Positions 5,031-44,053 of a DNA stretch of 52,254 nucleotides are shown here, piece after piece (position 1 is the first letter of the stretch; each line of letters starts with the position of its first letter). Source of the stretch: Bacteroidales bacterium (GTDB lineage Bacteria; Bacteroidota; Bacteroidia; Bacteroidales; UBA12481). The notes under the pieces are model-generated. The model searched no databases, was not told the origin of the DNA, and was given only the letters and a program-made list of their open reading frames with translations. The stretch covers positions 1-52,254 of the forward strand of contig JAGLDP010000017.1 of assembly GCA_023145515.1 (NCBI GenBank), given 5' to 3'. Position numbers and translations under genes: made by a program.

Positions 5031-6770
5031 ATGAAACAACGATTCCGTTTTCTGCTAATTTCCTCACTGATAATCACTCTAATCAGTTGTCAACCCCAGG
5101 AGCAAAATATAAGAATACTTGTTACTACCGATGTACACGGAGCATTTTTCCCAACTGATCCGATCACAGGTAGAAAGCAAAATGGCTCCATGGCTCACGT
5201 AAGCACTTATCTGGAAAATGAGAGAAAAGCTCATCCAAATGAGGTAATTGTTTTAGACAACGGCGATATTATTCAAGGCGACCCATCTGTTTATTATTAT
5301 AATTTCGAAAATACAGAAACAGAACACCTATTCACTAAAACCATGCATCTGCTTCAATATGATGCAGCTACTGTTGGTAATCACGATATTGAGACCGGAC
5401 ATGATGTTTATGATCGAATAAGAGCTGAACTCAATATTCCCTGGTTGGCCGCCAATTGTATTGATACAGAAAACGGAGAGCCTTATTTTGAGCCATACAC
5501 CATAATAAAAAGAGGTGGAATTACTGTCGCTATTCTCGGGTTAATCACCCCCGGAGTTCCAGGCTGGCTACCTGAAAATATTTGGTCAGGTATGGAATTC
5601 CTGGATATGATAGAAACAGCAAAACATTGGGTTCCTGTAATTCTCGAAAAAGAAAAGCCTGATATACTGATCGGATTGTTTCATTCAGGATTAGATTATA
5701 CTTATAACAAGCAAGACAAAAACACTCCTGGAAATGAAAATGCAGTTCGCTTGGTAGTGCAAGAGGTAGCCGGCTTTGATGTGGTTTTTGCTGGTCATGA
5801 TCACCTTACATGGAATGAGTATCAGCTAGATCCTGAGGGAGATTCTGTTCTGATTCTTGGTTCAGGAAGTAAAGCAAGAGAACTAGCGGAGGCTAATTTT
5901 CACTTTAAGAAAAATGGCAGAAAGTGGAAAGTAATTCAGCTCACTGGCCATAATATTTCCATGAAATCCATTGAACCCAATCCTGCTTTCTCTAGTAGCT
6001 TTGAAGAGGAAATATCAGAAGTGAAGAATTACGTCAACCAGGAAGTAGCCAAGCTTCTTACTCCTTTATCAACCCGAGATGCATTTTTTGGTCCATCTGC
6101 TTTTATGAGCCTTATTCATAGAGTGCAACTTGGGATTTCAGGTGCAGATATTTCATTTGCAGCACCACTATCTTACAATACCTGGTTAAAACCCGGAATG
6201 CTCACAATGAACGATCTATTTGATCTTTACAGATTTGAAAATCTTTTATATACAATGAGTCTCACCGGACAGGAAATTCTTGACTATCTAAACTATTCGT
6301 ATGGCAACTGGATTAACCAGATGCACTCTCAGAATGATCATCTGATCAAATTCAAAGAAAATAAAGATGGATCTCTTAGAACAGCGACCAACTACTATAA
6401 TTTCGACTCAGCTCTAGGAATCAATTATCTTGTGGATATACAAAAAGAAGCAGGCCAAATGGTTACAATATCAAGTATGAGCAATGGAGATACATTTGAT
6501 TTGAACAAAACCTACAGTGTTGCCATTAACTCCTACCGGGGTAACGGAGGAGGTGGTCATCTCATTCAGGGAGCTGGCATAGCAGAAGATAAATTATCTG
6601 ACAGAATAATTACCTCAACCGACAAAGACCTCAGATTTTATATGAAAATCTGGATGGAAGACCAGAAAGTTATAGAAGTTAAAACTATTAAAAACTGGAG
6701 TCTGGTTCCTGAAGAGCTAGCTAGTAAAGGACGGGAGCTTGATTACAAAATTTTATTCAGGAAGAGATAA
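5031..6770 (+). CDS. 5'-nucleotidase / metallophosphoesterase lipoprotein (UshA-like)
   Basis: The 579-residue lipoprotein has signal L-I-S-C with Cys20. The N-terminal calcineurin-type phosphoesterase domain carries the metal motifs D-V-H-G, D-N-G-D, G-N-H-D, an H-S-G and G-H-D-H. The C-terminal 5'-nucleotidase domain contains the substrate-binding stretch ending N-G-G-G-G-H. The family hydrolyses nucleotides or related phosphoesters in the periplasm; exact substrate not resolvable. Its 3' end overlaps the convergent alpha/beta hydrolase gene by 28 bases. Confidence 0.88.
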   Translation: MKQRFRFLLISSLIITLISCQPQEQNIRILVTTDVHGAFFPTDPITGRKQNGSMAHVSTYLENERKAHPNEVIVLDNGDIIQGDPSVYYYNFENTETEHLFTKTMHLLQYDAATVGNHDIETGHDVYDRIRAELNIPWLAANCIDTENGEPYFEPYTIIKRGGITVAILGLITPGVPGWLPENIWSGMEFLDMIETAKHWVPVILEKEKPDILIGLFHSGLDYTYNKQDKNTPGNENAVRLVVQEVAGFDVVFAGHDHLTWNEYQLDPEGDSVLILGSGSKARELAEANFHFKKNGRKWKVIQLTGHNISMKSIEPNPAFSSSFEEEISEVKNYVNQEVAKLLTPLSTRDAFFGPSAFMSLIHRVQLGISGADISFAAPLSYNTWLKPGMLTMNDLFDLYRFENLLYTMSLTGQEILDYLNYSYGNWINQMHSQNDHLIKFKENKDGSLRTATNYYNFDSALGINYLVDIQKEAGQMVTISSMSNGDTFDLNKTYSVAINSYRGNGGGGHLIQGAGIAEDKLSDRIITSTDKDLRFYMKIWMEDQKVIEVKTIKNWSLVPEELASKGRELDYKILFRKR

Positions 6771-27002: not shown

Positions 27003-28184
27003 TTATCTTTTACTTTTTTGAGGTTCAAGTAAAACCAGAATCAAATTGTTTGAGTTTTCTTCATCCTCAATTAACTCAACAAGTTCATCTCTAATTTTTG
27101 GTAGAATTACTTCCTTCTTCTTCAGACATTCCAAGTCGTAAAATTGACCTATTACATCAAGAGTAACCAACCCTACGTATTTTTTCAGCTCTTTATTGTA
27201 GCTATGAATAAATACAGGTTCAATGCCAAACAAATCATTTTCCATTGTTGGTGTAATAAATATTTTTGAGGTATCGCAGGTTGTTTGATGACTAAGACTA
27301 AACACTTCATCATTTTTCTTATCATAAGCAACATTGATCCGCTCTTGACCATTCATCCCTTCAACAAATAAAAAACCACCATACTCATTGACGCTGAAAA
27401 CTTTAAACGATTCCTTGTTGGATGGCACGTCAACAATATTGGTTGGGATGACCTCTCCATCAGGAGTGATTGTGTACACTGTGTCGATACTTGATTCCCA
27501 AAAGTAGAATCTTTCAGAACCCTGATTAATGGTTGCAGTAGAGGACTTATTAAGGTGATTATTGTTAGGAAGAATTTTTCTAATCATATTAACATCTAAA
27601 TCAAGAAGTACCAAGCTGTGAAATTCATCAATCTGATTATTTGGTTTTTTGCAAAGGACAAGGAAATGATCGTCTGAAATGAATCTGATGTCAGTGGCAA
27701 ATCTAGCTGGAATAATCTCACTAGTATTTTGTTCTTTTATAAATTCCCCGTTGGTGTTGTATTTGATTATCTTCTGTCGTACTCCGTCCACAATAAAAAC
27801 AAACCGATCTTTAGCGTCCATTACCACCTCGCTGGCATGATGAAATTCACCCGGTCCTTTACCTTTTCTACCAATGTGTCTAACAAACTTCCCATCCTTA
27901 GTAAATAGTATTATTCTGTCTTCAACATTATCTGACACCATAATGTATTTCTCACCAATAGAAAGGGAACTGACATTAGTTATATAAGTTTCCATCCTTG
28001 GCTCTAAAACAATAAGCTCTACATCGGTAACAACGTCACTAAGTTTGATGTTTTTATTCTGTTCCAATCCCTTGCTAATGTCAATAATTACAGGAGCTCC
28101 AATATCCGATTTATCTCCAGAGCAGCTTTGGAAAAGAAATCCTGTGATTGTAAAAGCAAGTAAAAAAAAGATAGTTCTCTGCAT
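27003..28184 (-). CDS. 6-bladed beta-propeller lipoprotein (BF3164/DUF4934-like)
   Basis: The 393-residue protein has a lipobox (F-Q-S-C, Cys21). The mature part resembles the Bacteroidota 6-bladed beta-propeller family (NHL/TolB-like): D-V-E-L-I-V-L-E-P near residue 53, then the diagnostic K-F-V-R-H-I-G-R-K-G-K-G-P-G-E-F blade. It is one of three such lipoproteins in the island. These proteins are thought to be surface or periplasmic, with unknown ligands. It is divergent from the next propeller gene. Confidence 0.8.
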   Translation of the reverse strand: MQRTIFFLLAFTITGFLFQSCSGDKSDIGAPVIIDISKGLEQNKNIKLSDVVTDVELIVLEPRMETYITNVSSLSIGEKYIMVSDNVEDRIILFTKDGKFVRHIGRKGKGPGEFHHASEVVMDAKDRFVFIVDGVRQKIIKYNTNGEFIKEQNTSEIIPARFATDIRFISDDHFLVLCKKPNNQIDEFHSLVLLDLDVNMIRKILPNNNHLNKSSTATINQGSERFYFWESSIDTVYTITPDGEVIPTNIVDVPSNKESFKVFSVNEYGGFLFVEGMNGQERINVAYDKKNDEVFSLSHQTTCDTSKIFITPTMENDLFGIEPVFIHSYNKELKKYVGLVTLDVIGQFYDLECLKKKEVILPKIRDELVELIEDEENSNNLILVLLEPQKSKR

Positions 28185-28554: not shown

Positions 28555-29694
28555 ATGAGAACACCTTCTTTAGCTGTTATTATTACCCTTGTATTGTTCA
28601 CCATGTTGCAAGCATGTACTTCCAAGAAGTCCGAACCAAGTCAATATCCAGAAGTTATAAAAATTGATGTTGACGATAAGGATCGTGATTTATTGAAAAT
28701 TAGTTTAGATGATGTTTTTCCTCTTGAAACTTCTCAAACCAGCCTGCTAGGTTACGTATCCAAGGCACGATATTTTAATAATCGATTTTATATTCTTGAT
28801 AATTTAAGGAGTGAATCATTCTTTGTTTTTGATAAAAGAGGAGACTTCATTACCAAAACAATCAAGGGGAAAGGACCGGGTGAAATTTCAGATCCGTTTG
28901 CTTTTACAATAATCAAAGAAGATTCTGTTATTTTTTTATATGATCAAAGGAAACGAGCAATCCACTTTTACGACCTAGATCTTAATCACCTACGGTCTAA
29001 AAGACTTGTTGATGAATATATCTTGGATATTGACAATATCAATCGTGATTCTTTCCTTATCTACCATAACGCTGTAAGTACAAGTTCTCAAGGAGTTATA
29101 AGTGTTGTTCCTTATACACTATGCGATAAGGGGTTTACAAAAAAGGAGCATCTAGGCATTCGTTTACCCAGCAATAAAACAGTTCAATCATTATATAGTC
29201 CAGTCAGTATTGAAAATGATGAAGTTTTCTTTGTTGCTCCATGGAATTATAATATCTATCAACTATTTGAAGGAAAGGAAAGAGTTAGGTACAGTTTGGA
29301 TTATGGAAAATATCAATTCTCATCAAAGGAGTTAGAAACACTTACATCTCCTGATCTGTGGTATCACATTAAGCAAGGAAATCGTGGAGGACTTCCATAC
29401 AGCTTATTCAGAACTGATGATTTTCTAATAATTATTACACGCATTGAAGACAGGATTTTGACTTACATTCGTTCAAATAAGAGTAAGAAAGTCTTTTGTC
29501 TTAACGATTGTATTGATGCTAATCTAATGCCAGATTGTAAGATTTGGGGAGTTAAACCTGATGGGACATTTTATGGAATGGTTGAACCAACACAACTTAT
29601 TAAATATCAGAAATCCAGTGGTCAGTATAAAAACTTAAAGGTTAGTGAAAATGACAATCCATATGTTGTATTGTTCAAAATAAGAAAACGTTAA
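28555..29694 (+). CDS. 6-bladed beta-propeller lipoprotein
   Basis: The 379-residue protein has a lipobox L-Q-A-C (Cys21) and a propeller domain with the family-typical F-P-L-E-T segment near residue 56. The blade F-V-F-D-K-R-G-D-F..K-G-K-G-P-G-E-I-S-D-P-F follows. It is a paralogue of the lipoproteins at 27003-28184 and 33948-35099. A tail of a former tandem copy lies just upstream. Function unknown; expected at the outer membrane. Confidence 0.8.
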   Translation: MRTPSLAVIITLVLFTMLQACTSKKSEPSQYPEVIKIDVDDKDRDLLKISLDDVFPLETSQTSLLGYVSKARYFNNRFYILDNLRSESFFVFDKRGDFITKTIKGKGPGEISDPFAFTIIKEDSVIFLYDQRKRAIHFYDLDLNHLRSKRLVDEYILDIDNINRDSFLIYHNAVSTSSQGVISVVPYTLCDKGFTKKEHLGIRLPSNKTVQSLYSPVSIENDEVFFVAPWNYNIYQLFEGKERVRYSLDYGKYQFSSKELETLTSPDLWYHIKQGNRGGLPYSLFRTDDFLIIITRIEDRILTYIRSNKSKKVFCLNDCIDANLMPDCKIWGVKPDGTFYGMVEPTQLIKYQKSSGQYKNLKVSENDNPYVVLFKIRKR

Positions 29695-30675: not shown

Positions 30676-31770
30676 TTAAACAAGCGGCAGTTGGTCTTCC
30701 CCATTTTCTTTAGTTAATTCAAATATTTTGTGCCAATAGAAGAAAGCCTCCGGATTAAACTTCTTCAATCGATTTAGTCTTGGCCAATAAGGTTCTCCAA
30801 TTATCCAATCCTTCATGATTGCTGGATTTTCAAATTTTTCAATTTTAGTATGATTGAATTTGATCAGAGTAGAAACGTATGCAGCCTTTGAGGCAAAAGT
30901 GATTGCTCTATCAATATGAAATGACTCTGAGAAAATAAATCTAGAAACACGTTGAATGCCTGTTTGTAAATGGTTAAAATCACCTTTCCCATCGGCACCC
31001 CTACTTACCAAGCAAAGAGAGGTAAGGTAGATATCATCCAGCACATCCCCAATTGTTAATTTTGATAGATTTCTATATGTAAGTTCCGTGGATACAAAAT
31101 TCTCAAAAGTCTGTTTAACAAGTGCACCATCTTCTGCAATGTCCACCAGGTTACCTATGTCATAAAGTTGCTTCATGATTTCCATGCTCATACTTTTTTC
31201 TCCCTTGAAATATGGGATTCCGGTAGTATTGGGAGCGTAAGCTGTTAATTTATCTCCCAAAATATCTTCTACAGAAGGTGCTCTTACATGAATTGGATCT
31301 CCTTTTGAAAGTATGAACTTGGAGTTGACAGGAACCTCGATAATTTTAGTATACCCTACTTTTTCAAATAAGATATCGAGCAAAATACTTTCCTCAGCAT
31401 GCTGGGTTTTATGGACAGGCTGATAAAAAAACTTGTAATGAGTTTTATGAATACTTGTTGAGGTGTTGCGCTCCTGAAGTTTAAACCCTGTAAAACCTTG
31501 TTCTTCAAGCAAGGCTTTAAAAATCTCTTCCAAATTTTCAGGTTCTTTTTCAATAACAATGTCAATATCTATGGAAAGCCTTTTTGAAGAATCTAGAAGT
31601 AGCATTAAGGCAGTACCTCCCTTGAAAATAAAATCCAAATTCTGCTTCACCAAGCCCTCTAAAAGCATTAGGGCTCTAATAACCTTCTCTATAAGTATTT
31701 TATCAGCCTTTCTGTTTGCTGATGATACTTTGGTAATCCAATCTATATGTAATGAGTCTTTACTAATCAT
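30676..31770 (-). CDS. AbiEii-type nucleotidyltransferase toxin
   Basis: The 364-residue protein belongs to the AbiEii/MenA-like nucleotidyltransferase toxins. The core motif F-K-G-G-T-A-L (Gly51-Gly52) is followed by R-L-S-I-D-I-D (Asp68, Asp70 as probable metal ligands) and later the D-K-L-T-A-Y segment typical of the family. Type IV TA toxins of this class modify tRNA or other nucleic acid 3' ends and can give phage defence. Gene starts 20 bases after the antitoxin-like gene, forming the usual antitoxin-toxin order. The catalytic core appears intact. Confidence 0.85.
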   Translation of the reverse strand: MISKDSLHIDWITKVSSANRKADKILIEKVIRALMLLEGLVKQNLDFIFKGGTALMLLLDSSKRLSIDIDIVIEKEPENLEEIFKALLEEQGFTGFKLQERNTSTSIHKTHYKFFYQPVHKTQHAEESILLDILFEKVGYTKIIEVPVNSKFILSKGDPIHVRAPSVEDILGDKLTAYAPNTTGIPYFKGEKSMSMEIMKQLYDIGNLVDIAEDGALVKQTFENFVSTELTYRNLSKLTIGDVLDDIYLTSLCLVSRGADGKGDFNHLQTGIQRVSRFIFSESFHIDRAITFASKAAYVSTLIKFNHTKIEKFENPAIMKDWIIGEPYWPRLNRLKKFNPEAFFYWHKIFELTKENGEDQLPLV

Positions 31771-31790
31771 TTCAAATTAATGGCAGTAAA

Positions 31791-32462
31791 TCATATATGC
31801 TGCCGATATTTAGACGTTTCATTTAAATAATTATCTAATTCCTCTTTTTTCCTTCTTCTGCTAGCATAGCGTAACATTTTACTTTCGCTAATTGTGTACT
31901 TTTCAAATGCCTCATTAAAAATCTGATTCATTTCAGATCCTTGTTGAGCATTAAATATCACTGAATCACAGAATATATCAACAAGTAACTTCTCTATTGT
32001 AACGGTAGGAATTCCATCAACAAGTTGAATTGGGGCTTCTGAAACAAGTGATTTTACGATCCATGCCTCTTTTTCATCAATCATATATCGTCTAATTAAT
32101 TGCTCTGAAGGCTCCATAAAAACGGTATAGTCTCTGTCCTTCAAGTAATAGAAGACACTTTCCATGGCATCCTTATCAACTTCAATTAATTGGTAATATC
32201 TACCAGGTTGGTGAAGCATGAATTCGTTAAGCACCAAAGTATTCCAAAGACAAACTGTTAAAAAAGGAAAATCGGATTTTATCTTTTTATACAAGGAGTT
32301 TAGTTTATTTGATATTTCGGGGATGTAGGTATGTCCCTTACCGAGAGAATATTTTCCTCGTCCTATTCTATTTAAGACCCCTTCTTGTACAAGTTTGTAT
32401 ATCCTCCAATTGACAGTAGTCTTTTTCACTTCTGGTTCAAGAGAACTATAGAACTCCAACAA
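31791..32462 (-). CDS. AbiEi-like (DUF6577-type) antitoxin
   Basis: From TTG 32462 it is a 223-residue protein, beginning with part of a winged helix (T-V-N-W-R-I-Y-K-L-V-Q-E-G-V-L-N-R-I-G-R) and continuing as the AbiEi-like C-terminal region. The frame stays open upstream to 32543 and encodes a sensible continuation (K-R-K-F-Q-S-E-L-T-F-S-R-S-D-L-L-E-F), so the natural N-terminus is probably about 25 residues longer. No ATG, GTG or TTG exists there; only ATT, ATC or ATA could start. Either a non-standard start is used, or a frameshift separated it from the ATG at 32545-32547. It pairs with the AbiEii gene downstream. Confidence 0.72.
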   Translation of the reverse strand: MLEFYSSLEPEVKKTTVNWRIYKLVQEGVLNRIGRGKYSLGKGHTYIPEISNKLNSLYKKIKSDFPFLTVCLWNTLVLNEFMLHQPGRYYQLIEVDKDAMESVFYYLKDRDYTVFMEPSEQLIRRYMIDEKEAWIVKSLVSEAPIQLVDGIPTVTIEKLLVDIFCDSVIFNAQQGSEMNQIFNEAFEKYTISESKMLRYASRRRKKEELDNYLNETSKYRQHI

Positions 32463-33947: not shown

Positions 33948-35099
33948 TTAAAAGCTAATAAACAGCAAATAGGAAACACCGTCATTTTCAACTTTTTCAG
34001 AAGTGAGAGTATCCCTGTTCAATAGTTTCTCTCCCTCTGGATCAAGCTCTTGAATTACATTCTTTAGATCAAGCCCAGTAGTTGAATAAACTAATTGCTC
34101 ATCAAGGAATCCAATGACATTCCTATTTAAACCCATAAACTCCTGTCCTACTTTCTTTTGATATGTTTTAATTGTTGTAACAGTTTTATCCTTTTTGTTA
34201 TAAAATGACTCAAAAACCTCCTGATTATAAATATATTTTATCATTATCAAGTTGCTACTTTCATAGAAAGATTGATTGAAAACTTCGCCCATCAGATCGA
34301 AAGAGGGATTCTTAGTTCCGATTGAAATAACCGGTTTGTCGAAGGCAATGTTATACTTCTTATAACAAGAATCCTTTTCGATTCTGAAAATTTCATCAGA
34401 GAACCTGGGCATGAAGTCTACAAATTCTTCAAAACGCTGAAGTCGAAAATGGCTACCACCTCCTCCAATTACAGGTTCATCAAATGGGATATATTTTTGC
34501 AATAATCCCCCCTCTCTGTCGACAAGTGCAATTTTGAAGTTGTAACCCTCAAAATATAGGTTCGTATTTCGTTGAATCACTAATTCATTGGAGCTCCAGG
34601 GTGCGAAAGACAACAAAACCTCTTGAACAGTATCAAGCCTAAAAGTTCGGGTTTCTTTAAAAATGAAATCCTGAGTGTAAATGTGTAAAGCCTTTTTGCC
34701 CGAATCAACAATCCAGATATCTCTATTAATTGGATCAATATCAAAATCAACCATATTGATGTATTCTCCTGGTCCCTCGCCATTGTTGGATAAAACTCCT
34801 TTTATCTGCCCCTTTGAGTCAAGTTTAAATATCTGCTCTCCAGCCATAATCTTATTAAGAATATAGAGCTCATCGGCAGCCCCTTGTAGCTTCATAATCC
34901 ACTGTAAATGTGCTGTTGTATCCTCCTCAACTCGTAAAATCCGAATACTTTTAATTATATCTGTTTCATTTACCAACACAGATTTGTCAATATCGATATT
35001 AATCGTTTCGACATCGTTCTCAATATTCTTTGCAAAGCACTGAACGAATAGTAAAACGATACTGGTAAAAATGGATGTCTTTATAATATTCTTTATCAT
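33948..35099 (-). CDS. 6-bladed beta-propeller lipoprotein in the kinase cluster
   Basis: The start is set at ATG 35099 (M-I-K-N-I-I-K-T), which gives a lipoprotein signal with Cys21 (F-V-Q-C); the frame is open to 35222 but that part overlaps the upstream gene. The 383-residue protein carries the propeller signature (F-K-L-D-S-K-G-Q-I..N-N-G-E-G-P-G-E-Y, then W-I-V-D-S). It begins ten bases after the DUF4369/TlpA-type gene, so both are co-transcribed. Paralogue of the propellers at 27003 and 28555. Confidence 0.8.
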   Translation of the reverse strand: MIKNIIKTSIFTSIVLLFVQCFAKNIENDVETINIDIDKSVLVNETDIIKSIRILRVEEDTTAHLQWIMKLQGAADELYILNKIMAGEQIFKLDSKGQIKGVLSNNGEGPGEYINMVDFDIDPINRDIWIVDSGKKALHIYTQDFIFKETRTFRLDTVQEVLLSFAPWSSNELVIQRNTNLYFEGYNFKIALVDREGGLLQKYIPFDEPVIGGGGSHFRLQRFEEFVDFMPRFSDEIFRIEKDSCYKKYNIAFDKPVISIGTKNPSFDLMGEVFNQSFYESSNLIMIKYIYNQEVFESFYNKKDKTVTTIKTYQKKVGQEFMGLNRNVIGFLDEQLVYSTTGLDLKNVIQELDPEGEKLLNRDTLTSEKVENDGVSYLLFISF

Positions 35100-35109
35100 G
35101 ACTTTGGAT

Positions 35110-36270
35110 TTATAGTAACTCGATGAGTAACTTCTTAACCTCTGATGCCGTTGGATTAATGGCGAGGATCTCTCCCTTCTCATCAACCAGGATAGTTCCA
35201 CCTCCGGAGTTAGAAACTCCATATTTATCCCAGATACCGTTCTGATTGTTCAACTCAACCAAATTAATCCAAGGAAATTTTTCTTTCGCCATCCTTTTTC
35301 TCAAAGCATCTGTATTATTAAACTCACCGGCAACTCCAACAATGGTAAAACCTTTACCCACAAATTCTTTGAATATGGGAATCATGGTTCTTGAATTTTC
35401 AATACATGGGCCACACCAACTTGCCCATAGATCGATCAATGCGATTTTACTCTTAATTTCGTCAGACAATCTTATCTGATTTCCTTCAATATCTGGCAGG
35501 GTGAAGTCAATAAATGTTCCACCAATTTTTATATTGTCTAATCCATCAAGCAAATTTTCAACAATGCTGTTATATGGATGATCAGAGTGTTTTTTAAGAA
35601 AAATAGAATAGTCCTTTTTTAACTGATTGATATTGGGATTCTCATTACTTGGATCCTGGATATTTATTATGAACCAATAATATGCAGGAACAGAGTATTC
35701 AAATCCCTCATAATCATATCGCCAGGCGGATATTTCTTCCATAATCTTGAAACTTTGCTCTCTCAGAGCTGTTGCTTTTGGAGTAGTCTGAAGGTTGGTT
35801 GAGTCTGTGAAATAATTACCCTCCTTGAGTAAAACATCAATGGAGTCATTGTAGGGCTGACACTTTGTATTGAAATCGTCTAAAAATTGATTGTATCGAG
35901 AGTAATACATCTGATTAAGTTTGCCTCCTGATATCTTATTTTCACTTGCTCTTAGCATAGTGTGAAGTTTAAATTCAATGAGGCCCCCATCTGGAAAAAA
36001 CAGATTTTGATAAAAAGGTTCATCAGGAAAAACTAACGCATAAGCTTCACATTCAGAAATATTTAGCTCATAGGTAAAAGAATTGTTATTTACAGGTATT
36101 TTGATTTCTAGTCCTGTATCAAACTCTAATCCTTTTGTTAATAGTATTGTATCTATTTTGTGATCTACAATTTCCCCACTTAGTATACAAGTCTTCGGCG
36201 ATTCCTGTCCAGTGCATGTACATAGCAGACATAGGAGTCCCATTAATGAAAGAGATATTATTATTTTCAT
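35110..36270 (-). CDS. DUF4369/TlpA-type thioredoxin lipoprotein
   Basis: The 386-residue protein has a lipobox in L-L-C-T-C (Cys19). Residues ~25-130 look like the DUF4369 beta-sandwich found before thioredoxin domains in Bacteroidota; a helical linker follows. The C-terminal ~140 residues are a TlpA/ResA-type thioredoxin fold with W-A-S-W-C-G-P-C. It probably reduces or isomerises disulfides at the cell envelope. It lies 27 bases after the LytTR fragment and ten before the propeller gene. Confidence 0.85.
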   Translation of the reverse strand: MKIIISLSLMGLLCLLCTCTGQESPKTCILSGEIVDHKIDTILLTKGLEFDTGLEIKIPVNNNSFTYELNISECEAYALVFPDEPFYQNLFFPDGGLIEFKLHTMLRASENKISGGKLNQMYYSRYNQFLDDFNTKCQPYNDSIDVLLKEGNYFTDSTNLQTTPKATALREQSFKIMEEISAWRYDYEGFEYSVPAYYWFIINIQDPSNENPNINQLKKDYSIFLKKHSDHPYNSIVENLLDGLDNIKIGGTFIDFTLPDIEGNQIRLSDEIKSKIALIDLWASWCGPCIENSRTMIPIFKEFVGKGFTIVGVAGEFNNTDALRKRMAKEKFPWINLVELNNQNGIWDKYGVSNSGGGTILVDEKGEILAINPTASEVKKLLIELL

Positions 36271-36297: not shown

Positions 36298-36603
36298 TTA
36301 TTCCTTGGATTTCAAGTCTTTGAAGAATTGATCCCGATAGCTCATCCCTATGGGAATCATTTGTTCACCAATCCTGATTTTATTTCGTTCTATGCTATCT
36401 ATTTTGTCTAATGAAACAACATAAGATTTATGCACTCGCATAAACTTGCTTCTTGGCAATCTACATTCAAGATTCTTGAAACTCTGCAAAGTCATTATTT
36501 TAGATTGTGAGGAAACAATTTTCAAGTAGCCCCCCTGTCCTTCAACGTATAGAATATCAGAAAAATCAATGCGCTCCATACGATATTCTGTCTTCACAAA
36601 CAT
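36298..36603 (-). CDS. LytTR DNA-binding domain (3' part of a split response regulator)
   Basis: The 101-residue LytTR domain shows D-I-L-Y-V-E-G-Q-G-G-Y-L-K-I, F-M-R-V-H-K-S-Y-V-V-S-L-D-K-I and the terminal F-F-K-D-L segment. It is in frame with the receiver domain gene upstream: between them are only a TAA (36643-36645) and 13 sense codons. The two pieces together would be a normal ~240-residue LytTR regulator. The ATG at 36603 could allow internal translation, giving a DNA-binding domain without receiver control. Confidence 0.8.
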   Translation of the reverse strand: MFVKTEYRMERIDFSDILYVEGQGGYLKIVSSQSKIMTLQSFKNLECRLPRSKFMRVHKSYVVSLDKIDSIERNKIRIGEQMIPIGMSYRDQFFKDLKSKE

Positions 36604-36642
36604 ATATTCTCTGGGTAGATCACCATTAGTATCATTCTGAAC

Positions 36643-36981
36643 TTAATCGACGGCTTTTAAGAACCTTTCGAATGAATAGGGTTTTAAAAGATAATCAGTT
36701 ACAGAATAGTCGAAGCCTTTAACCGCATATTCGCTGTATGCCGAAACAATAATTATCTTCGGGTGCTTTGCTAATGACTCCAAAAACTGCAAGCCCGTAA
36801 ACACCTCCATTTGGATATCCAGAAAAACCAAATCCACTTGCTGAGTTTTCATAAAAGAAAGAGCTTCAATTCCATTAGTGAATGATCCCAATAAATTTAA
36901 TAAAGGAACCTCGCCTATGAACCTTTCCAGCTTCTCGATGGCAAGAGGTGTATCGTCAATTACTATGCAATTAATTGTCAT
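36643..36981 (-). CDS. Response regulator receiver domain (5' part of a split LytTR regulator)
   Basis: The 112-residue CheY-like receiver has acidic residues I-D-D (9-10), phospho-acceptor Asp55 in V-F-L-D-I-Q, S-A-Y-S and the Lys of L-L-K-P-Y. It stops at an in-frame TAA just where the linker to LytTR begins. It overlaps the kinase gene by 11 bases, so kinase and regulator are translationally coupled. Confidence 0.85.
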   Translation of the reverse strand: MTINCIVIDDTPLAIEKLERFIGEVPLLNLLGSFTNGIEALSFMKTQQVDLVFLDIQMEVFTGLQFLESLAKHPKIIIVSAYSEYAVKGFDYSVTDYLLKPYSFERFLKAVD

Positions 36982-38002
36982 TCGTGGTAATTCTTAGGAA
37001 AACCTTAAAGCTATCATCCTCTTCCTTAATTTCCAGTTTATGCTTTTCAGGATATATCAATTCAAGTCTTCTCTTGATAATATCCAATCCAACACCGCTG
37101 GAATCATCTTTAGTTATCAGTTTAGTTTTATCCGCCAGATTTCTTGATTCGAAAGTTACAATATCACCCTCAATTGAGAATTGAAATTGTATGGCATCAT
37201 CAATTTCTTTGTCAGTACAGTGTTTAAAAGCGTTTTCTACAAAAGAGACAAACATAATCGGTGCAATTGAAATATTCTCTGGTGCACCCTTAACAGTTAA
37301 TGATACCAGATTCTTATTGGCATATTGTATTGCCTGAAGTTCAATATAGTTCTCAATATGCTTTATTTCACTAGCCAAGGATACCTTATTTACCTTAGTG
37401 TCATATATCATATACCTCATAATCTCAGAGAGTTTCACGAGAGTCTCAGAGGCTTTTTCTGCATTACTTTTGATCAAACTGTCTATGTTATTTAGGGTAT
37501 TGAAGAAAAAATGAGGACTAATTTGATTTTTAAGTAGATTTAATTCACCCTGCAAATTCTGTTTCTGTAGTTCCTCAGATTTGATTTTTAATTTAATCCA
37601 ATCAATTGCAAACCTGAATAGGCTTCCTAGAATTGCTGTGAGAAGATTGGCCGAATAAAATCTTATGAAAGTCACCACAGCCTGCAATTCCTTACCTCCA
37701 CTATTCAAATATAAATACAAAGCAATAGAGATAATGGTTAAGAGTAGAATAGCCCCAGTTTTATATCCATAATTTCTTTCGGCAAATATCTTTGGTTTAA
37801 GAAAATAGAACAAATAGAAAATGATTATGTAAAATATTGCACGAACGATAATATGGGGAGCCACCATATTGATGAAATCCTTAAAAAGTATCATTTCTTG
37901 ATATGGTGGTATAAATGTACCTATCCATTTATTTAAAAACATAAATACTCCAAGAACGACCCACGATAAAATATGGATTATAAGGATTGTTTGTTTTTTC
38001 AT
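36971..38002 (-). CDS. LytS/YehU-type sensor histidine kinase
   Basis: The 343-residue protein has about four transmembrane helices (roughly 7-25, 45-70, 82-100, 110-130), a short coiled segment, then a His_kinase domain with phospho-acceptor His164 in N-Q-I-S-P-H-F-F-F-N-T-L-N. The ATPase part has F-V-E-N-A-F-K-H and G-V-G-L-D-I-I-K-R-R. It likely phosphorylates the adjacent receiver. First gene of the five-gene minus-strand cluster that ends with the propeller lipoprotein. Confidence 0.9.
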   Translation of the reverse strand: MKKQTILIIHILSWVVLGVFMFLNKWIGTFIPPYQEMILFKDFINMVAPHIIVRAIFYIIIFYLFYFLKPKIFAERNYGYKTGAILLLTIISIALYLYLNSGGKELQAVVTFIRFYSANLLTAILGSLFRFAIDWIKLKIKSEELQKQNLQGELNLLKNQISPHFFFNTLNNIDSLIKSNAEKASETLVKLSEIMRYMIYDTKVNKVSLASEIKHIENYIELQAIQYANKNLVSLTVKGAPENISIAPIMFVSFVENAFKHCTDKEIDDAIQFQFSIEGDIVTFESRNLADKTKLITKDDSSGVGLDIIKRRLELIYPEKHKLEIKEEDDSFKVFLRITTNDN

Positions 38003-38067: not shown

Positions 38068-38358
38068 TTAACGAACGAAGGGATTTTGTGCATGAAGGAA
38101 TAGAAAAGTGTATTCAACCTTCTGAAATACAGAAAAAGATTCGCCTGTTTCAAGTTCTAAATCATAAAGATGATCTCTGAAAACACCTTCTTGCTTTAGA
38201 TCTGTATGATAGCCCGTTAAGATTAGAATATCCCAATCAGATGTCTTTTTTGCATCCCCTCTTGCTCGAGAGCCATAGAGTGCTACCTCGGCTTGAGGAT
38301 CTATCTGACTGATTCTCATACGAATCATATTGGCAATATTCTTGTCTCTATCTAACAT
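38068..38358 (-). CDS. Minimal nucleotidyltransferase (MntA-like)
   Basis: The 96-residue protein has the nucleotidyltransferase motif G-S-R-A-R-G-D-A (29-36) followed by S-D-W-D (40-43). It ends at N-P-F-V-R, a point where relatives often continue with an N-I-x-x-E-G segment, so a slight C-terminal truncation is possible. Relatives act as the antitoxin half of HEPN/MNT pairs; no HEPN gene is adjacent. Confidence 0.8.
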   Translation of the reverse strand: MLDRDKNIANMIRMRISQIDPQAEVALYGSRARGDAKKTSDWDILILTGYHTDLKQEGVFRDHLYDLELETGESFSVFQKVEYTFLFLHAQNPFVR

Positions 38359-38378
38359 ATTCCAAATCTAATGATTTT

Positions 38379-38462
38379 CTAATCATCAACTCGAATGTGA
38401 CCAGGACCAACGGCTGGAACAACTAAGAAAAGAAAGAGACTAACATTAAAGAATAGTTTCAT
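38379..38462 (-). CDS. Very short signal-peptide-like open frame
   Basis: A 27-codon frame reads M-K-L-F-F-N-V-S-L-F-L-F-L-V-V-P-A-V-G-P-G-H-stop-proximal tail. It is a basic start, hydrophobic core and short polar end between the XRE and nucleotidyltransferase genes. It may be a tiny exported peptide, the relic of a longer secreted protein, or chance. Confidence 0.25.
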   Translation of the reverse strand: MKLFFNVSLFLFLVVPAVGPGHIRVDD

Positions 38463-38521
38463 TATAGTTTTTGTCTACTCATTGCTTATGTTTTCCTATT
38501 AAACTTTTGGCTTGTGTGCCT

Positions 38522-38803
38522 TTATCTCGCAATTAATTGAACAGAGAGATCCAGAGCATTTGCGACCAATAAAAGATTTGAGATCTTTATATCCTCTCCA
38601 TTTTCAATTCGTGAGATATAAGGGCGTTTTTTACCAACTGCCTCAGCTAGTGCTTCTTGACTCATTTTTAATTCCTTTCTGCGATTTCTTATAATCTCTC
38701 CAAAATAATAGGAATAGGCTTTTTCTCTGAATTTTTCTCGACTCTTAGATCCTTTTTCGCCATATCGCTCCGCTAAAATATCTTTTGCTTTTATTGTTTT
38801 CAT
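38522..38803 (-). CDS. XRE-family helix-turn-helix protein (antitoxin-like)
   Basis: The 93-residue protein has a C-terminal HTH_3 domain (about 34-90): I-I-R-N-R-R-K-E-L-K-M-S-Q-E-A-L-A-E and R-P-Y-I-S-R-I-E-N-G-E-D-I-K. The extended N-terminus resembles HigA-type antitoxins. No RelE/HigB-like toxin is present on either side, so it is orphaned. A GTAACG/CGTTAC palindrome overlaps its promoter and is a likely self-binding site. Confidence 0.82.
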   Translation of the reverse strand: MKTIKAKDILAERYGEKGSKSREKFREKAYSYYFGEIIRNRRKELKMSQEALAEAVGKKRPYISRIENGEDIKISNLLLVANALDLSVQLIAR

Positions 38804-39188: not shown

Positions 39189-40976
39189 ATGGCAAACAGA
39201 TTAATCGGATCTTTACCCAAAGTAGGAATTCGCCCGGTCATTGACGGACGCGAGCGTGGTGTTAGAGAGTCTCTTGAAAACCAGTGTATGAATATGGCTC
39301 AAGCAGCAGCCAAATTAATTGAGGATAATCTCCGTTTTCCAAGTGGAGAAAAAGTTGAATGCGTAATTGCAGATACCAATATTGGAGGAGTAGCTGAAGC
39401 CGCAATGTGTGCCGATAAGTTTCAACGTGAAGGTGTAGGAGTTTCTCTTACAGTAACTCCATGCTGGTGTTATGGTACAGAGGTTATGGACACAAACCCA
39501 TTAATCCCAAAAGCTGTCTGGGGATTTAACGGAACAGAACGCCCGGGCGCTGTATACCTTGCAGCAGCACTGGCCGGATATGCCCAAAAAGGCCTTCCAA
39601 CTTTTGGCATTTATGGTAGAGATGTACAGGATGCTGGAGACATGAGTATCCCTGAAGATGTGAAAGAGAAAGTATTGCGATTTGTCAAATCCGGACTAGC
39701 AGTTGCGCAAATGAACGGGAAGTCTTATCTGTCTATCGGATATAGCTCAATGGGAATTGCCGGGTCAATGGTCGACACTAATTTCTTTCAGGATTATCTG
39801 GGAGTTCGTACCGAGTTTGTTGAGTCAGTAGAGATCCTCCGTAGAATTGATGAAGGTGTTTATGATAAAGTTGAATATGCCAAAGCACTGTCATGGACAA
39901 AAGAGAATTGCAAGGAAGGAAAAGATCACAATGCTCCTTCTAAACAGGTTGGTGCGGCCAGGAAAGTACATGAATGGGAAACCGTAGTTAAAATGGCCCT
40001 TATTTGTCGCGACTTAATGGTAGGCAATCCTAAGTTGACAGATATGGGATATCGCGAAGAAGGACTAGGACGAAATGCTATAATGGGTGGATTTCAAGGA
40101 CAAAGACAATGGACAGATTATCAGCCAAATGCCGATTTTCCGGAAGCTATCCTGAATTCTTCTTTTGATTGGAATGGTATAAGAGAAGCTTTTGTATTTG
40201 CTACTGAAAATGACAGTCTGAATGCCGTACCAATGTTGTTTGGACACTTATTATCTAATACAGCTCAGATCTTTTCTGATGTTCGTACCTATTGGAGTCC
40301 TGATGCAGTGAAACGAGTGACTGGAAAAGAATTAGAGGGTACAGCTTCAAATGGGATTATTCATCTGATTAATTCAGGATCTACTACTTTGGATGCTACG
40401 GCTCAACAAAGAGATGCAGACGGAAATCCTGCCATGAAAGCATTCTGGGAGATTAGTGAAGAGGAAGCCCAAAAATGTTTAGATAACACTCAATGGCCAC
40501 AGGCCGATCGTGGATATTTTCGCGGAGGAGGGTATTCATCTCAATTCAAAACAGAGGGTGAAATGCCGGTCACAATGTCACGTGTGAATTTGGTAAAGGG
40601 CATTGGACCAGTACTGCAAATTGCTGAAGGCTGGACAGTTGAGTTGCCAGATGAGATTCATGCCGTACTTGATAAGCGAACTAATCCTACCTGGCCAACC
40701 ACATGGTTTGTTCCTCGTACTGATGGTGAGGGTGCTTTCAAAGATGTGTATACCGTAATGGCCAATTGGGGTGCTAATCATGGAGCTATCAGTTACGGAC
40801 ATATTGGAGCCGATCTGATTACATTGGCATCCATGCTTAGGATTCCAGTTAGCATGCATAACGTTGATACAAACGATGTATTCAGACCAGCAGCCTGGGC
40901 TGCCTTTGGTACAGATAAGGAAGGATCAGATTACAGAGCCTGTGAAAATTATGGACCTCTCTACGGAATAAAATAG
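39189..40976 (+). CDS. fucI: L-fucose isomerase
   Basis: The 595-residue length equals the family standard. The start [17 protein letters not shown], the T-P-C-W-C-Y-G segment and the C-terminal [15 protein letters not shown] are characteristic. The enzyme converts L-fucose to L-fuculose (also D-arabinose to D-ribulose), Mn-dependent, in the cytoplasm. No other fucose genes follow here. It would have been next to tRNA-Arg before island insertion. Confidence 0.95.
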
Positions 40977-40996
40977 GGAATCAACTATTTTTCATC

Positions 40997-41021
40997 TACC
41001 TTTGTTCGTGTAATGACGAAC
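40997..41021 (+). promoter_or_regulatory. Promoter and ArsR-type operator
   Basis: TACCTTTG (40997-41004) is an exact -7 match. It is directly followed by GTTCGT-gtaatg-ACGAAC (41004-41021), a perfect 6-bp inverted repeat of the ArsR/SmtB kind. The first possible arsR ATG (41013) lies inside the palindrome. Confidence 0.65.
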
Positions 41022-41324
41022 AGTATGTTTGGAGACAAAGGTATCAGTGTTGAACAAGAAAAAATGGCCAGGTATGCTAAGGCCCTGAGTCATCCTATTC
41101 GAGTTTATGTAATGCAGTTATTATCTAAGCAGTCTTGCTGTTATAGTGGTGATTTGTCTGAGGTACTGCCCATTGCTAAATCAACTCTTTCTCAACATCT
41201 AAAGGAGCTTAAGAATGCCGGTTTAATCCAGGGAGAAATTGAAGCACCCAGAATAAAGTATTGTATTAATAACGAGAATTGGGAAGAAGCCAAAGGCCTC
41301 ATGAAAGCCTTATTGCTTGACTAA
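41013..41324 (+). CDS. arsR: ArsR/SmtB-family metalloregulator
   Basis: The 103-residue winged-helix repressor shows L-S-H-P-I-R-V-Y-V-M-Q-L-L, the metal-type pair S-C-C-Y-S-G-D-L (Cys42-Cys43) and recognition helix A-K-S-T-L-S-Q-H-L-K-E-L. ATG 41013 sits within the operator, so ATG 41025 is an alternative start. The first would leave almost no leader. It should repress the downstream genes until arsenicals bind its cysteines. Confidence 0.9.
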   Translation: MTNSMFGDKGISVEQEKMARYAKALSHPIRVYVMQLLSKQSCCYSGDLSEVLPIAKSTLSQHLKELKNAGLIQGEIEAPRIKYCINNENWEEAKGLMKALLLD

Positions 41325-41341
41325 AAAAATTTAATTAACTC

Positions 41342-41366
41342 GTTCGTTGTTTTGCGAATAACGAAC
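41342..41366 (+). promoter_or_regulatory. Second ArsR-type palindrome
   Basis: GTTCGT (41342-41347) and ACGAAC (41361-41366) repeat the half-sites of the arsR operator with a 13-base spacer; an inner TTCG/CGAA pair (41343-41346, 41355-41358) is also present. It lies between arsR and the ArsE-like gene and may be an internal operator/promoter. Confidence 0.55.
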
Positions 41367-41381
41367 AAAAAGACAAAGAAG

Positions 41382-41615
41382 ATGGAAGTTAAAATTTTGG
41401 GCACAGGATGTCAAAAGTGTCACACATTGGAAAAAGCGGTTAGAGATGTTATTGAGGATGAGAATATCACAGCGGATGTTGAAAAAGTAGAGGATATTGT
41501 CGAAATAATGAACTATGGAGTTATGGCTACTCCTGCCTTAGTTGTGGATGGCAAGGTTGTAGTTAAAGGACGAGTGCCATCAGCGAAAGAAATAAGAGAA
41601 TTTTTATCTAATTAA
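41382..41615 (+). CDS. Small thioredoxin-fold protein (ArsE-like)
   Basis: The 77-residue protein from ATG 41382 has the glutaredoxin-like redox motif C-Q-K-C (Cys10, Cys13) and cis-Pro region A-T-P-A-L-V-V-D-G, as in the MTH895/TM0996 small thioredoxins. The in-frame TTG at 41352 falls in the operator and is rejected. Followed by ArsF- and ArsG-like genes, it matches ArsE of the arsEFG system, which handles aromatic arsenicals. Confidence 0.82.
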   Translation: MEVKILGTGCQKCHTLEKAVRDVIEDENITADVEKVEDIVEIMNYGVMATPALVVDGKVVVKGRVPSAKEIREFLSN

Positions 41616-41625
41616 TATAGAGATT

Positions 41626-42018
41626 ATGAAAGCTTTTCGATTATTGGGCTTGATTTGTTTACTTTCTTTCTTTAGTGTTTCGGCTAACGAAAGTGTCAAT
41701 TTAATTAAATCTAAGGAAGTAACTGTTTACTACTTCCATGCCACAGGTAGGTGTGCTACTTGTAAGGCAGTTGAAGCGGTTACTCAAAAAGCACTGAAAG
41801 AACTTTATGGAGATAAGGTAGCTTTTACTTCCATCAACAGAGAGAAAGATAAGGAGAATCCTTTGGTAAAAAAGTATAAGATTAACGGACAAACACTACT
41901 TGTTGTGGAGGGTGAGAATGTTGTGAATTTGACTACTGAGGCCTTCTTGAATGCCCGTAAAAAGCCAAAAAAACTCGAATCAAAGTTGAAGCTCACAATA
42001 GATAAAATGCTAAAGTAG
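41626..42018 (+). CDS. ArsF-like exported thioredoxin-fold protein
   Basis: The 130-residue protein has a signal peptide ending in S-V-S-A, then a thioredoxin-like domain with C-A-T-C (Cys43, Cys46) in Y-Y-F-H-A-T-G-R-C-A-T-C. It fits the ArsF family, reported as part of a nitrophenyl-arsenical nitroreductase. Starts ten bases after the ArsE-like gene and ends two before the ArsG-like gene. Confidence 0.8.
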   Translation: MKAFRLLGLICLLSFFSVSANESVNLIKSKEVTVYYFHATGRCATCKAVEAVTQKALKELYGDKVAFTSINREKDKENPLVKKYKINGQTLLVVEGENVVNLTTEAFLNARKKPKKLESKLKLTIDKMLK

Positions 42019-42020
42019 GC

Positions 42021-42725
42021 ATGGAGTTTTTACAAACCTTGCTGGAAAATTCTCAATTTCCAATTCTTTCTGCATTTATTTTGGGTCTGATGACTGCCAT
42101 AAGTCCTTGTCCACTAGCAACAAATATTACTGCCATTGGCTTTATTAGCAAGGATATCGAAAGCAGACGAAAGGTCTTTGTAAGTGGCTTGATTTATACT
42201 TTGGGTAGAGGAATATCCTATTCTGTGATAGGTTTGCTTTTCTACTTCAGTATAGGGCAATTTGAGCTTTCAGGATTCTTTCAAACCTGGGGTGAGAAGA
42301 TCCTGGGACCCATTTTGGTCATTATTGGTCTCTTTATGCTTGGTATCATAAAGCTTACTATCCCTGGATTTGGATCGCTTACAGAGAGGATGGAAAATAA
42401 ATCTCGCAAAAGCATTTGGGGAGTACTCTTGCTGGGTATGGTATTTGCCCTGGCCTTCTGTCCTTATAGTGGAGTATTATATTTCGGAATGCTGATTCCT
42501 ATGACTGTGAGCAGTGCAAGCGGACTAATTTTACCCTTAGTATTTGCGGTGGGTACAGGAATTCCAGTGATCATTTTTGCCTGGCTGATCGCTTTTAGTG
42601 TAGGTCAAATTGGAGAATTTTATAAAAAGATTAAAGTCTTTGAGTTTTGGTTCAGGCGGGTAGTTGCTGTATTGTTTATCGGCGTTGGTACATATTATAT
42701 CATTCGTCTCATTATTAATCTTTAA
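42021..42725 (+). CDS. ArsG-like efflux permease (CcdA/DsbD fold)
   Basis: The 234-residue protein has six or seven membrane helices. The helix-1 motif A-I-S-P-C-P-L-A and the later A-F-C-P-Y-S-G match the paired Cys-Pro motifs of the CcdA/LysE superfamily. In the arsEFG system ArsG exports trivalent aromatic aminoarsenicals. Translationally coupled to the ArsF-like gene. Confidence 0.82.
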   Translation: MEFLQTLLENSQFPILSAFILGLMTAISPCPLATNITAIGFISKDIESRRKVFVSGLIYTLGRGISYSVIGLLFYFSIGQFELSGFFQTWGEKILGPILVIIGLFMLGIIKLTIPGFGSLTERMENKSRKSIWGVLLLGMVFALAFCPYSGVLYFGMLIPMTVSSASGLILPLVFAVGTGIPVIIFAWLIAFSVGQIGEFYKKIKVFEFWFRRVVAVLFIGVGTYYIIRLIINL

Positions 42726-42742
42726 TATTCATCGCTTTGAAT

Positions 42743-44053
42743 ATGAAAAAGGATATTAAAACTCTACTATGGATTGTTGCCATCTTTCTGGGTGTCTTTT
42801 TCCTTCCCTTGGAAAATGTCCGATTCAATGAAGCACTTACAGCGACACTGGATCTGGCGAAATGGTATGCACGCGAGCATGTAATTCTCTGCCTCCTTCC
42901 TGCTTTCTTTATTGCCGGAGTGATTTCAGTTTTCGTGAGCCAGGGAGCAGTGATGAAGTATTTTGGTGCTAAGGCAAAAAAATGGGTAGCCTACACTATT
43001 GCTTCTGTTTCAGGAACCATTTTAGCAGTTTGTAGCTGTACTATTCTTCCCCTATTTTCGAGCATACATAAAAGGGGAGCTGGATTAGGTCCGGCTATTG
43101 CATTTTTATACTCTGGTCCGGCTATTAATATTCTGGCTATAATTTTAACCGCCCGGATATTAGGATTTGAAATGGGGATTGCCCGAATTATTGGTGCTGT
43201 TGTTTTTGCCATAGTTATAGGTTCCACAATGTCTTTTATCTACAGAAAGGAAGAAAAAGAAAAGCGAGAAGAGCAGATTAACTTCCCTGATATTCCTGAG
43301 AAGCGTCCAATGTGGAAAACATCCTTCCATTTTTTTGTATTGGTTTTGATCCTGGTTTTTGCAAATTGGGGGAAACCCGGCGAGGGGGTTGAATCTGGTG
43401 GCTGGTATTGGTTGTGGGCTAACAAATGGTTTATTACCGGCGGATTTTCTCTTGTGTTAAGTTTCTCCTTGATATATATTTTGAAGTTACAGTGGATTCA
43501 GGTTGTATTAGTAAGCTCCATAACTGCTATTTCAGCTTTCTTTTTTGCATCGCCCTTGATACCCGTGATTATTGGGATTGCTGGTCTGAGTTTGATCACA
43601 TTACTCGACAAAAACGATCCTGACAATAAGGAATGGACAATTTCAACCTGGGGATTTACTAAACAGATTATGCCCATGCTGGCCATCGGTGTTTTGATTG
43701 CTGGATTCCTTCTGGGCTCAACTCATGATGATACTGCTATTGCTGGAATTATTCCCAATGAGTGGATTGCTAATCTGGTAGGTGGTAATTCCATTTTCTC
43801 TAACTTTTTTGCATCAATTGTTGGAGCCTTCATGTATTTTGCCACCTTAACGGAAGTGCCTATACTACAAGGCCTTATGTCTGCAGGAATGGGCAAAGGC
43901 CCAGCCTTGGCATTATTATTGGCTGGCCCTTCATTGTCATTGCCAAATATGCTGGTAATCAGAGGAGTTTTGGGAACTCAAAAGACCATAGTCTATGTAA
44001 TATTGGTTGTAATCATGGCCACAATATCAGGTTTGATTTTTGGTGCAATCTAA
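42743..44053 (+). CDS. ArsP-like permease (DUF318 family)
   Basis: The 436-residue protein from ATG 42743 (a TTG at 42737 is in frame) has about ten membrane helices. The vicinal cysteine motif V-C-S-C-T-I-L-P-L-F-S-S and the G-P-A-I-N-I-L repeat half are conserved in ArsP/DUF318 permeases, which export trivalent organoarsenicals such as MAs(III). Last gene of the ars operon. Its 3' end overlaps the convergent GH2 gene by 41 bases, so no terminator separates them. Confidence 0.82.
   Translation: MKKDIKTLLWIVAIFLGVFFLPLENVRFNEALTATLDLAKWYAREHVILCLLPAFFIAGVISVFVSQGAVMKYFGAKAKKWVAYTIASVSGTILAVCSCTILPLFSSIHKRGAGLGPAIAFLYSGPAINILAIILTARILGFEMGIARIIGAVVFAIVIGSTMSFIYRKEEKEKREEQINFPDIPEKRPMWKTSFHFFVLVLILVFANWGKPGEGVESGGWYWLWANKWFITGGFSLVLSFSLIYILKLQWIQVVLVSSITAISAFFFASPLIPVIIGIAGLSLITLLDKNDPDNKEWTISTWGFTKQIMPMLAIGVLIAGFLLGSTHDDTAIAGIIPNEWIANLVGGNSIFSNFFASIVGAFMYFATLTEVPILQGLMSAGMGKGPALALLLAGPSLSLPNMLVIRGVLGTQKTIVYVILVVIMATISGLIFGAI

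Follow-up and report, generated by a model that had tools for sequence, protein, structure and literature searches.

An in-frame stop codon between the receiver and LytTR domains of a Bacteroidales response regulator

Results

Organization of the locus

The window analyzed here, meaning the whole stretch of 52,254 nucleotides on contig JAGLDP010000017.1 of a Bacteroidales bacterium (GenBank assembly GCA_023145515.1), carries a LytS-type sensor histidine kinase gene directly upstream of a response regulator frame (Table 1). The first-pass annotation had described the latter as a LytTR response regulator split by an in-frame TAA, with halves in the same frame, only the TAA and 13 sense codons apart, and otherwise intact in appearance. 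Reading of the minus strand bore out each part of that description: a single frame opens at an ATG, closes at a TAA, and is broken by one further TAA, the halves match the receiver family PF00072 (71.3 bits; cut-off 30.2) and the LytTR family PF04397 (65.6 bits; cut-off 22.6; profile positions 2-95 of 98), and no lesion beyond the TAA at codon 113 was found in the frame. The first half qualifies as a receiver by its phosphorylation residues as well as by profile: D10, D55, and K100, invariant in an alignment of 19 relatives, are all present.

Table 1. Features of the kinase-regulator locus (positions in the window)
Feature	Position	Strand	Remarks
LytS-type sensor histidine kinase, 343 aa, open frame	36971..38002	-	His_kinase PF06580
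Response regulator frame, receiver and LytTR, interrupted once	36298..36981	-	227 codons
Receiver ORF, 112 aa, acidic pair, Asp55 and Lys100	36643..36981	-	Pfam, alignment
In-frame TAA, codon 113	36643..36645	-	Lys in 8/9 close orthologues, Arg in L065
13 sense codons, aligning with the interdomain linker of relatives	36604..36642	-	
LytTR DNA-binding domain, 101 aa from ancestral internal Met	36298..36603	-	Weak start context

Judged by sequence comparison, the interrupted frame is real and not a chance alignment of open segments. Read through the stop, it shares 67-72% identity over the best segment with seven genes of the genome_contigs collection, and its linker codons align with theirs. 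Among 27 same-frame pairs of neighbouring open segments in 298,332 bases of the genome (each segment at least 70 codons and coding-like; the target pair included), the regulator pair had the highest coding score over the 12 codons after the stop, 5.1 against 3.4 for the next.

The kinase matches PF06580 at 88.4 bits and the end of its gene overlaps the start of the regulator gene by 11 bases, an adjacency typical of LytS/LytTR two-component systems. The overlap is also 11 bases in seven orthologous loci and 4 bases in L065. The two genes stay paired, with overlap, in the window, L044, L046-L049, L052, L063, and L065, in flanks that mostly differ. No window ORF of at least 100 aa within 5 kb, kinase and regulator excepted, had a match in the orthologue flanks compared, some of which were short: L045 had 59 bases upstream, and L063 and L065 had 1.5 kb. 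A few orthologue pairs have one flanking gene in common, downstream in L045/L048 and upstream, at differing distances, in L044/L047 and L044/L052. In three other families, close orthologues turned up in 1 of 3, 1 of 16, and 1 of 12 of the genomes. The constancy of the couple, its differing flanks, and its patchy presence in those families suggest that it has moved horizontally.

Downstream of the regulator lies a redoxin-like gene (Pfam). Upstream of the kinase, at 38068-38803, are a Cro/C1-type helix-turn-helix gene (93 aa) and then a small nucleotidyltransferase-domain gene (96 aa), and at 39189-44053 an L-fucose isomerase gene is followed by an ArsR-type regulator, three small genes, and an ArsP-type permease; the first two of the small genes may be thioredoxin-like, as judged by eye. 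The window also holds a pair matching AbiEii (a toxin-like nucleotidyltransferase) and AbiEi/DUF6577 at 30676-32462, and, in a stretch of less than 9 kb, three DUF5128 genes (27003-28184, 28555-29694, and 33948-35222) whose products are 6-bladed beta-propeller proteins.

The regulator in relatives

In genome_contigs, the nearest relatives of the regulator belonged to metagenome-derived genomes with the label Bacteroidales or Bacteroidetes. Nine close orthologues were considered: the seven from genome_contigs and two from whole genomes, L063 (genome G165) and L065 (genome G344), with L062, whose contig equals that of L048 in length, counted as the same gene as L048. Eight of the nine were uninterrupted, and against these the TAA in the window is a disabling change. 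Alignment of homologues, proposed by the first-pass annotation as a way to find the codon expected at 36643-36645, gave a basic residue: Lys in eight of the nine, L049 included, and Arg in L065.

Three wider searches, which overlap in genomes and whose rows were not de-duplicated, returned no premature stop outside the window: 0 of 139 rows in a search of 60 genomes, and 0 of 70 and 0 of 75 rows in searches of 393 and 345 genomes, respectively, where the best 7-8 candidates per genome were scored. Thirteen rows flagged for stops (G007, G344, G291, G386, and nine from the 345-genome search) were checked, and each proved to be the natural end of a gene after the LytTR domain. Matches covering only one end of the query in the 60-genome search were rejected as split genes, being open frames of about 250-280 codons or, for G028:C111, lying at a contig edge. 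The other LytTR matches in the same genome are stop-free open frames of 233, 268, and 280 codons. Since eight of nine orthologues are uninterrupted and no other premature stop appeared in the wider searches, a regulator naturally encoded by two genes was ruled out, and with it the possibility, raised at the outset, that homologues always comprise two separate genes.

No new orthologues came from family searches around G165, G129, and G344, from further order draws, or from viral contigs, and the plasmid collection contained no match to the regulator. In a search of PDB sequences (41 sequences at E up to 1e-5), the receiver half alone was matched in the stretches listed. No split LytTR response regulator was found in the literature judged by title and the start of the abstract, which was not a full search.

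Position of the cut and the second start codon

An AlphaFold2 model of the orthologue L047, built from 19 sequences (mean pLDDT 85.5; pTM 0.50), placed the last receiver helix at residues 104-112 and the first LytTR strand from 126, with 118-122 below pLDDT 50. Region 111-120 averaged pLDDT 66, and the end of the helix is not sharp. On this model the window stop (113) is just past the last receiver helix and would spare the modelled receiver fold.

The second half was said to have its own ATG. An ATG is indeed present at 36603, coding for the residue where the LytTR fold begins, but the orthologues have Met there too, so the codon is no newly arisen start, and its context is weak. We scored 30 upstream bases with a model built on 146 starts of this genome and 1355 internal ATGs. 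Among starts the ATG at 36603 ranked at the 1st percentile, and among internal ATGs at the 41st. For the regulator, the kinase, and the next gene, the start codons fell at the 36th, 31st, and 84th percentiles of starts and scored above 97%, 95%, and essentially all of the internal ATGs, respectively, although some may have been in the training set. An ancestral Met whose context scores lower than 99% of starts gives no hint that a second gene has evolved, as far as upstream sequence alone can judge.

A second stop in the hinge

The one interrupted orthologue, L049 (contig CAIYZW010000686.1, MAG Ja1_bin-3933), has an in-frame TAA of its own at 6325-6327; this is codon 109, and the window's stop corresponds to a position four codons further on. 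Its LytTR half is stop-free from the TAA to the end, with a GTG at 6340 or a later ATG as candidate second starts. Codon 113 is Lys in L049 and codon 109 is Lys in the window regulator. As each gene has Lys at the other's stop codon, the two stops are separate events. On the L047 model, the L049 stop interrupts the last receiver helix, and the receiver would not be cleanly cut.

Among the single-base changes that would create a stop in these genes, 13-16% lie in the interdomain stretch 102-126. A stop in one of nine orthologues as opposed to none of 280 other rows gives a Fisher p of 0.03, a post hoc value from related rows, some of them counted twice. Both hinge stops come from draft metagenome-derived genomes. 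Two such stops in ten genes are a suggestive lead toward convergence, not proof of it.

The LytTR half of L049 gave dN/dS values of 0.07-0.10 (NG86) or 0.10-0.20 (YN00) against four relatives; five uninterrupted pairs with finite dS gave 0.04-0.12 (NG86). Its LytTR dN was 0.13 to L044 and 0.12 to L047, compared with 0.05 between L044 and L047. The L049 receiver is nearest to that of L047 (95%) and its LytTR half to that of L052 (86%). Accelerated evolution of L049, or recombination, is possible on these figures.

Age of the interruption

The LytTR half of the window regulator was 56% identical to each of the outgroups L007 and L006, where the uninterrupted orthologues ranged over 50-55% and 56-62%, respectively. 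The gene does not look like an old pseudogene: it has no second lesion and its LytTR half is not clearly more diverged than those of the uninterrupted orthologues, which points to a recent change or to halves that have remained under selection. None of four pairs involving the window gave a finite dS (NG86), and the stop is therefore undatable. A recent stop, continued selection on both halves, and a base error fit these data alike.

Discussion

We consider the locus to be most simply explained, with a probability of roughly 0.6, by one nonsense mutation of recent date in a conserved interdomain codon for a basic residue of a cognate LytS/LytTR-type response regulator, leaving little DNA-binding output. 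A recent nonsense mutation was one of two readings put forward by the first-pass annotation, and with relatives fused and a basic residue expected at codon 113 it is the better supported; the other, two functional proteins, drew no support from a second ATG that is a Met shared with orthologues and has the context of an internal ATG. Translation of the operon would yield the kinase and a 112-residue receiver, which could still take phosphate from the kinase but without output. The LytTR half would rarely or never be translated, by weak reinitiation or from its first Met. The couple would then be silent or much reduced in activity, the free receiver serving at most as a phosphate sink for the kinase, and the target genes of the couple would lose phosphorylation-dependent control. 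The nonsense change itself may be recently fixed, or it may be a polymorphism among strains that the assembly happened to capture. A recent change is made less comfortable by the end branch of the window gene, the longest in the tree of ten genes (0.48, followed by L065 at 0.39 and L063 at 0.30), and a single accident does not predict the independent TAA of L049.

A rather unlikely explanation is that the assembly carries a wrong base at codon 113 and that the organism has an ordinary fused regulator. The source is a draft metagenome-derived genome (2,582,220 bases in 213 contigs, 62.8% complete), a single base would explain everything, and both halves look selected. However, of nine other same-frame pairs tested with Pfam among the 27, none had one family spanning the stop (seven had two different families, one had families after the stop alone, and one had none), giving no sign of frequent gene-interrupting stops in this assembly, and the hinge stop of L049 would need a second error. 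Gene fission, in which the receiver would work as a free protein and the LytTR part as a second one that binds DNA without gating by phosphorylation, appears improbable. It would suit a modelled cut just past the last receiver helix with the second ATG at the first residue of the LytTR fold, the natural occurrence of receiver-less LytTR regulators noted in PMC6193735, and the cutting of L049 in the same hinge; it sits poorly with a second ATG that is ancestral and at the 1st percentile of starts, with the failure to find a two-gene version among the relatives examined, and with a stop in L049 that the model places within the receiver.

Low-level readthrough of the TAA, by which some full-length regulator is made and the stop serves to lower expression, is very improbable, even though bacterial genes that evolve under purifying selection are reported to carry in-frame stops widely, most of them short-lived (PMC7918605). 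TAA ends ordinary genes of the window and so has not been reassigned, the RNA around it folds no better than shuffled sequences (z 0.18), which removes a structured readthrough signal from consideration, and the window and L049 stops are at different codons. Work on a channel gene into which stops had been inserted describes reinitiation behind them (PMC4648390), in a eukaryotic setting that is not taken as evidence here. It is quite improbable, finally, that stops between receiver and LytTR domains recur in this regulator clade because uncoupling is repeatedly favoured, with kinase and receiver kept and DNA binding dropped as an on/off state within populations that a point mutation can create and reverse. 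A nonsense change that cuts a regulator is in itself a fairly ordinary event; L049 supplies one intriguing parallel.

In its arrangement the couple resembles LytS/LytTR-type systems such as YpdA/YpdB and BtsS/BtsR of E. coli, where a PF06580 kinase adjoins a regulator with receiver and LytTR domains. BtsR carries both domains in one polypeptide. The window regulator, with a TAA at codon 113, departs from this type in not being encoded as one polypeptide. YpdB is likewise a single polypeptide with both domains (PMC4847170), unlike the window regulator, which is cut between them. A phosphomimetic change in the YpdB receiver is reported there to strengthen cooperative DNA binding, and by analogy a detached LytTR domain would probably fall short of the activated full-length protein in activity. 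LytTR Regulatory Systems (PMC6193735) provide another parallel, since any LytTR protein made from the cut gene would lack a receiver. Those systems pair the regulator gene with a transmembrane inhibitor; the next gene here looks redoxin-like by Pfam, and the second ATG of the regulator frame has a poor start context. The locus also resembles the in-frame stops in selected bacterial genes treated by Belinky et al. (2021; PMC7918605), in which a nonsense codon lies between halves that otherwise look conserved. Such stops are thought there to be mostly short-lived and SNP-like; by comparison with that study, we have one genome of the species and a stop that falls between two domains.

Should the interruption prove to be a base error or a solitary nonsense mutation, its value is mainly that of a warning for annotation: an ORF caller lists two proteins where relatives have one. 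If the recurrent-uncoupling reading is true, codon 113 of the window regulator and codon 109 of L049 would each mark an independent case of it. Such stops, if real and recurrent, would represent a natural two-component system that is disconnected at a domain joint instead of being lost, and would open the question of separate uses for free receivers and free LytTR domains.
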